From positions 1 to 41,517 of the forward strand of contig CAIXME010000078.1 of assembly GCA_903920425.1 (NCBI GenBank): a stretch of DNA of 41,517 nucleotides, read 5' to 3'. Source of the DNA: an uncultured Pirellula sp. (GTDB lineage Bacteria; Planctomycetota; Planctomycetia; Pirellulales; Pirellulaceae). The notes below the pieces were generated by a model. That model saw nothing but the letters and a program-made list of their open reading frames with translations. It did no database searches and was not told the DNA's origin. This document shows positions 17,254 through 22,017 of the stretch, one piece after another. The position numbers and the translations under genes were made by a program. Positions within the stretch are counted from its first letter, which is position 1. The number at the start of each line of letters is the position of its first letter.

Positions 17254-17847
17254 ATGACCGAATTTCCAGATACTCAATCCTTGCTGCTGGCGAATATCCA
17301 GTCTTTCGAAAATCGAGAGGCTTGGGAAGAGTTCGTACAGGTGTACCGTCCCGTAATCTACAGGATGGCGAGGCGACGTGGGATGCAGGACGCAGACGCA
17401 CAAGACCTTGCGCAGGACGTTTTGATACGGATTTCAAAGTCGATCGAAGGATGGGAGCGGCAGCATGGAATCCGGTTCCGTCACTGGCTGCGAAAGGTAG
17501 CCAGCAATGCGATCGTCACGGCGGTAACGAGGTCCAAGCCTCGTGATATCGTGCAAGGGTCGGCGGCTGAACCATTCTTAGATTCGGCTCTTGAAGAGTC
17601 TGCTGCAACCGATGAACTCCATGCAGAGTGTTTACGGGAACGTTATTTGCGCGCTGCAAACATGGTGAAGCTCGACGTTAGTCCCGATACCTGGTCTGCT
17701 TTCGAGCGGACTGTAATTCAAGGGGAGTCTTGTGAAGTAGCCGCTGAATTCCTCGGCAAGTCGATTGGCACCATCTATGCGGCTCGCAGTCGCATTCTAA
17801 AGCGATTACAAGCGGAAGTTCGACGACTGGAAGGTGACGTGCAATGA
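17254..17847 (+). CDS. ECF-like RNA polymerase sigma factor
   Basis: Region 2 AWEEFVQVYRPVIYRMARRRGMQDADAQDLAQDVLIRI...FRHWLRKVASNAIV; region 4 ESCEVAAEFLGKSIGTIYAARSRILKRLQ. Confidence 0.92.
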   Translation: MTEFPDTQSLLLANIQSFENREAWEEFVQVYRPVIYRMARRRGMQDADAQDLAQDVLIRISKSIEGWERQHGIRFRHWLRKVASNAIVTAVTRSKPRDIVQGSAAEPFLDSALEESAATDELHAECLRERYLRAANMVKLDVSPDTWSAFERTVIQGESCEVAAEFLGKSIGTIYAARSRILKRLQAEVRRLEGDVQ

Positions 17848-20441
17848 ACGCCAATAAAGACATGATGCCTTCAACCGAATGTGATCTTCAGCGGATTAGA
17901 GATTTTCTCAAATCCGATCATTACCACATAGAGGATCATGAGCTGATTACTCACCTCGATTCCTGTTCTGCTTGCCGGCAGTATCTTGAAGAGCAGGCAG
18001 GGGAACCCGAGAGGTGGCAGCAAGCGACTCAGTTGCTGCAAACCTGCGAATACGACCAAGCCAGCCGCGTCGAATTTTCTGCTGCAACCCAAAGCGATGC
18101 AGACAGCAAGCAACCGTTGGTTGTAAAGGACGTCATCGAGATGCTTGTCCCCTCCGAATACCCAAACCATCTTGGGCGGCTTGGTGCATATGAAGTCACT
18201 GGTGTGGTTGGTGTCGGAGGAATGGGCGTTGTTTTGAAAGCGATCGACTCATCGCTTGACCGTGTTGTGGCGGTAAAAGTGATGAATCCAAGATTGGCTC
18301 ACCACGAGAATGCTCGCAAGCGGTTTGCCCGCGAAGCAAAGGCTGCTGCAGCAGTATTGCATCCCAACGTCATTCCGATCCACAGTGTTTCTAGTGGATC
18401 TACATTGCCGTATCTTGTCATGTCGTATATTCGCGGTGGCTCTTTGCAAAAGCGCATCGATCAGGAAGGATCATTGCCGTTAATCGAAGTATTGCGCATC
18501 GGTTCGCAAATCGCAGCTGGGTTGTCGGCTGCTCATGAGCAAGGATTGATTCATCGCGATATCAAGCCCGAAAACATCCTACTAGAAGAAGGCGTTGAAC
18601 GCGTCACGATCACTGATTTTGGTTTAGCTCGCTCGGTCGACGATAATACAATTACGCAAATGGGGTCCATCGCAGGAACACCCCAGTACATGTCTCCTGA
18701 ACAGGCTCGCGGCGAACAACTTGATCAGCAAAGCGACTTGTTTAGTCTGGGGAGTTTGCTTTATACACTGTGTACTGGCAAACCACCTTTTCGCGACGAT
18801 ACCTCGTACGGGGTAATGCGAAAAATCATCGACGAGGTTCCGACGGCAATCCACCACGTAAGCCCGGGAACACCATCCTGGATGGTCAAAATCGTCGATC
18901 AGCTGATGGCAAAGAAAAAAGAGAATCGGTTCGCATCAGCCAAAGCGGTACACGAACTGCTTGAAAACTGCCTCAGTCATGCGCAACAGCCATCGGCTTG
19001 TCCATTGCCAACAAGTCTGCAGTCGCAACCAATAACCATAACCACGCGGGGTAGAAAGAACGCAATCCTATCCGTCTTATCCGTCCTTGCCGTCGGCATC
19101 GTTTTCCTGGCTGCAATTGCAGTACGCCAATACACTTTGCCTTACTCGGCATCGCAATACAGTATGTCGTCAATTCTGATTGGCGAAGAGGGCGAATCGT
19201 TGGCACCGGAACAGGCTTCAGAGGTCAGCGGACGAGTCACGTTCGGAGATCGTGAACGAATACTTGGCACGTGGGAGGTTGTAAAAACGCCCACGCGATG
19301 GGCAGGCCAGGAGAAGAGCAATCGGATCGGCGAGTGGCATACATTCGCAACAAGCTCATACGCCCTCCAACGGTCTGGGATTGCGCCGTCCAAAGGGGAG
19401 TGGCGTTTGGACGATTCGGTCAGCCCGCGGCGAATAGCATTCGATTTCGACGGCGCAGAGCAAAAGGCGATATACAAAATCGAGGGTGATGTCTTGAGTC
19501 TGTACTATGTAAATGGAAAACGCGACTACCCGAAATCGTTCCCTTCGGCATGGAATGTATTTGATAAAGGTGTGTTGTTGATTCTACGTCACAACGAGTA
19601 TGCGGACGTCGAGTTTGATTTCGACGCGTTAACACCTGGGGAAGCAAACTTGATTGCGAAGCATTCGGCAAGGATTTCCCTGACTCGTCTGTCAGAAATC
19701 ACCCCGGAGCTTGCGTCAGTACTTTCTACAGGGCCAGGTAACTTGTCATTACCAGCGGTGACTGATTTATCGCAAGAGACCGCGCGATCGCTTGCGACCA
19801 AGAGATCGGGTTGGCTAGTATTACCTGGGCTGAAAAGAATAACATCTGAGGCTGCAACAGAACTTGCGATGGCAACGTGTGCATTGGACCTGGGAATAGA
19901 GGAGCTCAGCCTCGGAGTAGCGCGTGCATTGGGCTCTCATACTGCAGCACTCTCCTTAAACCGAATTCGGACAATCACGCCGGAGGCTGCCGCAGCACTC
20001 TTGAGCGGTAAGCGATGGTTGCAACTTAGTGGTCTAGAGTCGCTCAGTGTCGAAGTTGCCTCTGCATTGTCACAGCACCAAGGTTGGCTTTCGCTGAACG
20101 GACTGAATGCAATCTCACCAGAATCCGCCGATGCATTGGCCTCGTTTCATGGTGTCAGCCTTGATTTAAATGGCCTTCAAAATTTGGATGTCGCCATCGC
20201 TGAACTACTTGCAAAGGTGAGAACATCTAATCAGTTCAGTTTAAACGGCTTGAGAACGCTCAGCCCAGAGGTTGCAGCAGCGCTCGTCTCTGGCGGACAC
20301 CGCCATTTGAGTCTGCAAGGTATTGAAGCCCTCACAGATGAGTCACTCACGATACTGCGACGACATCAAAGACGACTGACCGAAGGCAATACAGGCGAGA
20401 TGCTGTTGCCTGCGAAGTTTCGGTTGCCAAACAACCAGTGA
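17844..20441 (+). CDS. Serine/threonine protein kinase with N-terminal ZAS-like motif, TM helix, TIGR03067-like domain and C-terminal LRR-like repeats
   Basis: HLDSCSAC (HX3CX2C); kinase motifs GVGGMGVVLKAID, VAVKVM, LIHRDIKPENILL, ITDFGLAR, GTPQYMSPEQARG; TM ILSVLSVLAVGIVFLAAIAV; TIGR03067-like LGTWEVVKTPTRW...GEWRLDDSVSPRRIAFDFDG; C-terminal LSLNGLxxISPEAAxAL repeats. ATGA overlap with the sigma gene. Confidence 0.93.
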   Translation: MNANKDMMPSTECDLQRIRDFLKSDHYHIEDHELITHLDSCSACRQYLEEQAGEPERWQQATQLLQTCEYDQASRVEFSAATQSDADSKQPLVVKDVIEMLVPSEYPNHLGRLGAYEVTGVVGVGGMGVVLKAIDSSLDRVVAVKVMNPRLAHHENARKRFAREAKAAAAVLHPNVIPIHSVSSGSTLPYLVMSYIRGGSLQKRIDQEGSLPLIEVLRIGSQIAAGLSAAHEQGLIHRDIKPENILLEEGVERVTITDFGLARSVDDNTITQMGSIAGTPQYMSPEQARGEQLDQQSDLFSLGSLLYTLCTGKPPFRDDTSYGVMRKIIDEVPTAIHHVSPGTPSWMVKIVDQLMAKKKENRFASAKAVHELLENCLSHAQQPSACPLPTSLQSQPITITTRGRKNAILSVLSVLAVGIVFLAAIAVRQYTLPYSASQYSMSSILIGEEGESLAPEQASEVSGRVTFGDRERILGTWEVVKTPTRWAGQEKSNRIGEWHTFATSSYALQRSGIAPSKGEWRLDDSVSPRRIAFDFDGAEQKAIYKIEGDVLSLYYVNGKRDYPKSFPSAWNVFDKGVLLILRHNEYADVEFDFDALTPGEANLIAKHSARISLTRLSEITPELASVLSTGPGNLSLPAVTDLSQETARSLATKRSGWLVLPGLKRITSEAATELAMATCALDLGIEELSLGVARALGSHTAALSLNRIRTITPEAAAALLSGKRWLQLSGLESLSVEVASALSQHQGWLSLNGLNAISPESADALASFHGVSLDLNGLQNLDVAIAELLAKVRTSNQFSLNGLRTLSPEVAAALVSGGHRHLSLQGIEALTDESLTILRRHQRRLTEGNTGEMLLPAKFRLPNNQ

Positions 20442-20454
20442 AACAATGCGTTGC

Positions 20455-22017
20455 TCATGGCGTATCGTCATCGAACAAGGACAATTGCCGGTACTCTGAT
20501 ACCTTTTTGGGCTTGGGCAATGGATCGCGTTTCTTGCGGGACCCATGCTTTATGAATACCCGCTGAGATTCCTCTATCGCTGGTGCGCTTTGACGAATGG
20601 CAAATATCTTTTCACGAGCCGCTTTGTATGCAAGTCGATGATCGACAATCGGCATCGGGTAGTCCTCCCCCACGACGCAGCCGACGCGGGACTGCAGACT
20701 CAAGGGCATCTTGTGAGGTTCCGCAAGATGTTCGTCGGGGACCATCGACAGTTCGGGTACAAACTTTCTGATGAATTGGCCAGTCGGGTCGTGATCGATA
20801 ACTTGTTTTGCGGGCGAGTAGATTCGAACCGAGTTGATGCCAGTCGTTCCCGATTGCATTTGGCATTGCGAAAAATGGATCCCCGGTTCGAAATCTAGAA
20901 AGTGCTTGGCAAGATAAACGGCCGTTGGACGCCAATGAAGCCAAAGGTGGTTAGCGGCAAAGGACATCAGCATGGCCCGCATCCGGAAATTGATCCAGCT
21001 ATGTTGGCTGAGTGCCCTCATGCAGGCATCGACCATCGGATAGCCGGTCTTTCCCTCTTTCCAGGCTTCGAAGTAGTCTTGGTTGAAATCATTCTCGCGC
21101 AGGCCATCGTAAACACGATTCATGTTACGGAACTCTAGCTCCGGTTCATCTTCTAGTTTTTGCATGAAATGGCAGTGCCATGCCAGTCGAGACGAAAACG
21201 AATTGAGCGAATTTAGCCATCGTGAATCGAAGGAGCCGGCGTGAGCTTCTCGAAGCTCACGTTGTCGGGCTATTAATCGATGGTGCACACTCCTAACTGA
21301 GATACAACCCCAGGCGAGATAAGGGCTGAGGCGGCTACATGAATCCCAAGAAGTCACAGGACTCGACATCGACTTGCGATAGTCAACGCCCCGCGTTGTC
21401 AAAAACGATTCCAGAGTGTCGAGTGCTTGAGACTCACCCCCCGGCTGCAAGTTTGACTTTTGCGTTGGGGCCAGGCCGAGTTCCTCGCCTGTGGGCAGAC
21501 GTCCCCAATCAAATTCGTTGGGGATTTGGATTCGTGCCGGAGGTTGAGCGACCGGTTCTCTCATTCTCTGTTGCCAAAGATCAGCCCAACCATTTCGGCC
21601 CTTGAGGCGTCTCACGACTCCATTGTGATGGTACTGCTGCCAGTCGATTCCTGCGTTTCGAGCCCATTTAGATACAAGCCGATCCCGATCGTAGGTGAAG
21701 CCATTACCTGTCTCTTCATGAGAATAGAGTTTGGCGATGGTAAAATCACGGGAGATGTCGACCAGGACGTCGGGTAGTTCGCCGACCCGAATAGCCAAAC
21801 GTCCGCCGAGCTCTTCCAATTTTGCGGAGAGCTCATGCAGCGACTGCCTGATGAAGTCGAAATGGGATCTGTCCATTTCGGGCATCGCCCATAGCTTGGG
21901 TTCGAAAACATAGAGTATGACGGTCTGGCCAGCTTGACACGCCTCCGTGATTGGCCTGTGATCGCTGAGCCTTATATCACGCTTGAGCCATACTAGATGA
22001 ATTGGAATCCGTTGCAC
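20455..22017 (-). CDS. Deoxyribodipyrimidine photolyase/cryptochrome family protein
   Basis: N-terminal LVWLKRDIRLSDHRPITEA; FAD-binding-domain motifs KTGYPMVDACMRALSQHSWINFRMRAMLMSFAANHLWLHWRPTAVYLAKHFLDFEPGIHFSQCQMQSGTTGINSVRIYSPAKQ. Confidence 0.92.
   Translation of the reverse strand: MQRIPIHLVWLKRDIRLSDHRPITEACQAGQTVILYVFEPKLWAMPEMDRSHFDFIRQSLHELSAKLEELGGRLAIRVGELPDVLVDISRDFTIAKLYSHEETGNGFTYDRDRLVSKWARNAGIDWQQYHHNGVVRRLKGRNGWADLWQQRMREPVAQPPARIQIPNEFDWGRLPTGEELGLAPTQKSNLQPGGESQALDTLESFLTTRGVDYRKSMSSPVTSWDSCSRLSPYLAWGCISVRSVHHRLIARQRELREAHAGSFDSRWLNSLNSFSSRLAWHCHFMQKLEDEPELEFRNMNRVYDGLRENDFNQDYFEAWKEGKTGYPMVDACMRALSQHSWINFRMRAMLMSFAANHLWLHWRPTAVYLAKHFLDFEPGIHFSQCQMQSGTTGINSVRIYSPAKQVIDHDPTGQFIRKFVPELSMVPDEHLAEPHKMPLSLQSRVGCVVGEDYPMPIVDHRLAYKAAREKIFAIRQSAPAIEESQRVFIKHGSRKKRDPLPKPKKVSEYRQLSLFDDDTP

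Follow-up and report, generated by a model that had tools for sequence, protein, structure and literature searches.

A Photolyase-Fold Protein of Pirellula with a Probable Clamp-Docking Peptide near Its C Terminus

Introduction

Clients of the bacterial sliding clamp (DnaN, or β clamp) carry short peptides of the consensus Q-phi-x-[LM]-[FL] or Q-phi-x-[LM]-x-[FL] (PMC13254535). The archaeal clamp is PCNA, and its clients carry the PIP box QxxLxxFx (PMC7776575); this review of PIP-box proteins names no photolyase among them. A search of open-licence papers found none that lists photolyases among clamp clients, which is weak evidence of novelty because of that restriction. To our knowledge, photolyases have been treated as freely diffusing enzymes that locate lesions unaided. 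A conserved clamp-docking tail would bring enzymes that reverse UV damage directly to the sliding clamp, where the choice falls between pathways such as mismatch repair and translesion synthesis. The protein described here is encoded in a stretch of 41,517 nucleotides from an uncultured Pirellula sp. (the window), and its C terminus, seen together with those of its relatives, suggests that certain photolyases act while attached to the replication machinery.

Results

Domain Organization and C-Terminal Tail

The features of the gene are as follows.

20455..22017, minus strand: photolyase/cryptochrome-fold coding sequence, an open reading frame with a GTG start encoding 520 amino acids, with PF00875 and PF03441 both over cut-off
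21613..21996, minus strand: PF00875, N-terminal DNA photolyase (antenna-type) domain, residues 8–135
20605..21198, minus strand: PF03441, FAD-binding domain, residues 274–471
20488..20547, minus strand: basic linker HGSRKKRDPLPKPKKVSEYR, residues 491–510, with low model confidence
20473..20487, minus strand: putative clamp-binding motif QLSLF, residues 511–515, supported by homologue conservation
20458..20472, minus strand: acidic end DDDTP, residues 516–520

AlphaFold2 models the 520-residue protein with confidence as a photolyase fold (mean pLDDT 83.8). Among solved structures, photolyases and cryptochromes come closest, at 24%–26% identity. Disorder is predicted for the tail, where pLDDT falls below 50 at residues 492–498 and 504–520. 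The motif CAATTGTCCTTGTTC (QLSLF) lies exactly at 20473–20487 and is followed by DDDTP and the stop codon, which places it five residues from the C terminus; an acidic residue downstream of the motif is common among homologues. QLSLF conforms to the β-clamp consensus (PMC13254535). The first-pass annotation had placed this motif near the photolyase C terminus, matched it to that consensus, and assigned it to a probably disordered tail of basic and acidic character, and all of this is borne out by the coordinates, the low pLDDT at 504–520, the basic linker, and the acidic end. The neighboring plus-strand stretch (17254–20441) encodes a sigma-factor-like protein and then a serine/threonine kinase that contains an extended stretch of repeats; it is convergent with the photolyase gene, and 13 bases separate their ends.

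A pentapeptide of this composition could be a common hydrophobic string without a role. Indeed, when a degenerate DNA pattern for QLSLF, with the serine position loosened to WSN, was counted in the organism's own genome, 46 matches were obtained versus 58 for the reversed pattern used as control. The pattern is not enriched, and QLSLF by itself is therefore uninformative, being at chance level. The weight of the argument falls on where the peptide recurs and where it is absent.

Conservation of the Motif within the Genus

Among 27 genomes of the genus, including the organism's own, a homologue was present in 26 and its C terminus was visible in 25. The first-pass annotation had proposed a check of the terminal motif in homologues, with its absence from close ones as the refuting outcome. 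The proposal withstood this check: 24 of the 25 intact C termini were found to carry a motif, 14 in a QLxLF-like form and 10 in the form Q-x-x-LPG-[FLM]. The sole homologue without the tail is that of genome G012 (locus L024). The 14 motifs read QLSLF, QLTLF, QLFLF, QLSFW, or QQSLF, are followed by D, and stand 5–14 residues before the end. Codons within the motif differ synonymously between genus homologues (CAA/CAG, TTG/CTG/CTA/CTT, and TCC/TCA/TCG/TCT), as expected under purifying selection on the peptide.

The remaining 10 homologues (L015–L023 and L028) end in sequences such as QPRLPGMEDF, QQLFLPGLFDD, and QPLLPGFDE, which retain the glutamine, one leucine, and a bulky residue, in most cases with acidic residues downstream. 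Q-x-x-LPG-[FLM] is not a documented clamp motif, and it counts against the docking reading. Some of the ten have PIP-like spacing (Q..L..F). Genus members with this tail still have QLSLF-type motifs in DnaE, MutS, and ImuB.

Clamp Motifs of Local DnaN Clients

Known clamp clients were inspected in 10 genomes, nine from the genus and a tenth from a different genus within the family. In all nine genus genomes, Q[LM]SLF or QLNLF lies near position 940–970 of DnaE, DinB carries QLSLF or QMSLF in all three genus members that possess it, and MutS carries Q[LM]TLF close to its end in 10 of 10 genomes; QLSLF or QLGLF is found in ImuB in several of them. In the organism's own genome, the corresponding sequences are QMSLFDDFE in DnaE and QMTLF in MutS, next to QLSLFDDD in the photolyase. 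The agreement among these clients indicates that the photolyase tail follows the local version of the clamp motif. Alignment of this genome's DnaN with solved clamps extends to the segments ATDG[RH]RLA and YVVMPM, which we take to be part of the peptide pocket.

Distribution in the Wider Bacterial Family

A genome-wide scan returned at least 592 relatives of the photolyase-fold protein, the best 80 of which span Planctomycetota, Verrucomicrobiota, Pseudomonadota, Cyanobacteria, and Acidobacteria (organism names are those on the records, many of which are MAGs). The typical tail consists of a conserved H[GA]SR, a basic linker that varies in sequence and length, and a near-end motif such as QGDLFA, QADLFG, QMDLFP, QPTLFD, QLALDL, QLSFDL, QLSLPL, QEELPL, or a similar form. 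Q..[LMF](x)[FWLM], comprising the Q..LF and Q..LxL forms, occurs in 61 of the 82 distinct tails that reach 20 residues or more, and the mean over 2000 shuffles is 3.3 (maximum 12). The strict consensus occurs in 28 of the same 82 tails (shuffles: mean 0.43, maximum 5); a further 19 tails are too short for a motif. Because the 80 loci were the closest matches to the query, these proportions are biased toward its near relatives and do not serve as a census.

A quick tree requires at least 13 changes between presence and absence of the motif. In it, the clade of 18 rows to which the window protein belongs has the motif throughout, and neighboring rows are without it. Sampled Planctomycetes outside the genus mostly stop at HGSRRR, and most have no tail or motif. 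Such repeated gain and loss, together with the many tailless members, indicates that docking would be an accessory to the enzyme and not essential to it. In phage records, only distant photolyases were found. On Tritonibacter and Salinivibrio plasmids (L207 and L210), a small DUF2256 gene lies immediately 3′ of the photolyase gene, a combination for which a literature search found no paper.

Haloarchaeal Sister Clade

Six haloarchaeal members of the sister clade have intact genes, and five of them end in a PIP-box-like sequence: QSSLDAFE, QASLDAFE, QASLDAFEKN, QQQLADYS, and QRGLDAYT. The bacterial form of the motif is found in none of the six. PIP-type ends arose in 0 of 20,000 shuffles and differ in frequency from those of bacteria with p = 9e-6 (Fisher), values that overstate independence because the members are related. 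The presumed docking peptide thus follows the clamp of its host, being of DnaN type in bacteria and of PCNA type in haloarchaea. The haloarchaeal loci lie on plasmids (L211, L213, L214, L215, L216, and L217), and the Halorubrum copy (L216) is annotated as two genes, probably because of a frameshift.

These tails also bear on a different interpretation, in which the peptide is a protease degron, a fold-back peptide like those of cryptochromes, or a contact to another partner. Several family motifs do sit at the extreme C terminus with hydrophobic ends, and cryptochromes are known to make use of C-terminal tails. As many as 18 residues may, however, come after the motif, the conserved glutamine and the spacing agree with the clamp consensus, and a PCNA-specific form in archaea is predicted by neither a degron nor an intramolecular contact. 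A role unrelated to the clamp is accordingly judged improbable, and the sequence very probably represents a genuine clamp-docking peptide.

Class II Photolyase-Oxidase Fusion and Control Proteins

A second photolyase with a similar ending is a fusion of a class II photolyase to an amine-oxidase-like flavoprotein, which occurs both within the genus and in further genera of its family.

L281:459–2999 and L287–L315: class II photolyase-oxidase fusion loci, from the same genus, family, and order

QxxLF is found at most five residues from the end in 21 of 23 complete copies, with endings that include QLSLFS, QLDLFT, QLELF, QMELFE, and QPMLFDPDA; the terminus of the copy in the organism's own genome (L284) is not visible because a contig end cuts it. 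Attribution of this motif to the oxidase was rejected, as it is missing from all 11 stand-alone oxidases of this type, and so was attribution to class II photolyases in general, as it occurs in 0 of 6 stand-alone class II enzymes of the genus. Classical photolyases of the same phylum (0 of 28) are likewise devoid of the motif and stop directly past the last domain helix, and the DPRP-type photolyase of the organism's own genome has no C-terminal motif.

The signal is therefore the C-terminal conservation in homologues together with the absence from control proteins, not the pentapeptide itself. A chance origin, which agrees with the control-level frequency of the pattern in the genome, is rendered extremely improbable by the retention of the terminal peptide through synonymous codon changes, by its recurrence across the family relative to shuffles, and by the empty control proteins.

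Enzyme Class and Active Site

The window protein scores below every cut-off of the NCBIfam models for Cry-DASH, 8-HDF-type, plant cryptochrome, and class II photolyase, and assignment to a named class by this route was rejected. PF04244 (FeS-BCP, DPRP-type) is absent from it; the other photolyases of the same genome are two class II-like enzymes and one of DPRP type, which has this domain. Judged by sequence, the window protein is a member of a widespread, unnamed bacterial subfamily with the photolyase/cryptochrome fold.

When aligned with PhrA (4u63), the protein has R277, H381, C385, and M387 at positions that we take to correspond to E274, N378, W382, and W384 in E. coli numbering. The active-site set of class I CPD photolyases (E274, N378, W382, and W384) is thus not matched, and R277, H381, and M387 are invariant in a family alignment of 16 sequences. 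Archaeal sister proteins retain N and W at the N378 and W382 positions. R345, R347, W362, and D375, which align with conserved photolyase residues, are retained in the window protein.

The substituted positions, and the presence of the other photolyases in the genome, would suit a protein that binds the clamp and acts there as a light or redox sensor, no longer as a repair photolyase. Against this stand the four retained residues and a fusion found in Deinococcus, where family members encoded on plasmids are joined to uracil-DNA glycosylase (UDG; L208:3995–6277, L219, L220, and L223). Cytosine in a CPD deaminates readily, and reversal of the dimer then leaves uracil, which makes photolyase and UDG a sensible pair; the fusion thus points to DNA repair as the likely function of the family. 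Loss of repair in favor of sensing appears unlikely, without being far-fetched. The linker between photolyase and UDG contains QPNLF or QPALF; these motifs may belong to the fused UDG and were rejected as proof of docking.

The earlier proposal that the motif tethers light-driven repair to the clamp consequently divides in two. Its clamp half is supported, given the recurrence in the family, the switch to PIP-type ends in archaea, and the match with DnaE, DinB, and MutS. Its repair half is to be worded more cautiously: because the active-site positions are changed, we infer light-driven repair.

Discussion

The reading that we favor, and regard as probable, is that of a folded FAD enzyme (residues 1 to ∼490) followed by a disordered basic linker and a QLSLF peptide that docks on DnaN. 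Like its counterparts in DnaE, DinB, and MutS, QLSLF would most likely insert into the hydrophobic DnaN pocket, and the flexible linker would allow the catalytic domain to search the DNA beside the clamp. UV lesions at forks, at gaps, or at clamps left behind replication may thereby be met quickly. The observations behind this reading are the motif and its conservation, the disorder prediction, the agreement with local clamp clients, the change to a PIP box in haloarchaea, and the second photolyase type. Binding to DnaN, recruitment, the benefit at forks and gaps, and light-driven repair are what we infer from them.

If correct, direct light repair would be coupled to replication forks and postreplicative gaps, and the effect of losing five residues on light-dependent UV survival and on mutation rate offers a test. 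The family would also exemplify how a docking peptide is switched to fit the clamp of the host. The chances are slightly better than even that clamp-tethered photoreactivation is a general strategy that evolved repeatedly, with a bacterial subfamily on DnaN, its haloarchaeal sisters on PCNA, and the class II photolyase-oxidase fusion of Pirellulaceae acquiring such docking independently.

Analogous to the β-clamp clients DnaE, DinB, MutS, UmuC, and RecB, the photolyase combines the motif with a flexible location near the end of the protein and a context of DNA repair; those clients are a polymerase, a mismatch protein, or a nuclease, whereas here the client would be a protein of the photolyase fold. 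The haloarchaeal relatives share Q..L..[FY] with archaeal PCNA clients, at the same place in the protein. Class I and III CPD photolyases and animal-like cryptochromes (1dnp, 4u63, and 5zm0) have the same two-domain fold, with 24%–26% identity to the nearest structures, and the window protein differs from them in its divergent active-site positions and its C-terminal tail. The Pirellulaceae class II photolyase-amine oxidase fusion resembles the window protein in bearing QxxLF at the C terminus and in coming from the same bacteria, but it is of another photolyase class and has an added oxidase domain, after which its motif is placed.
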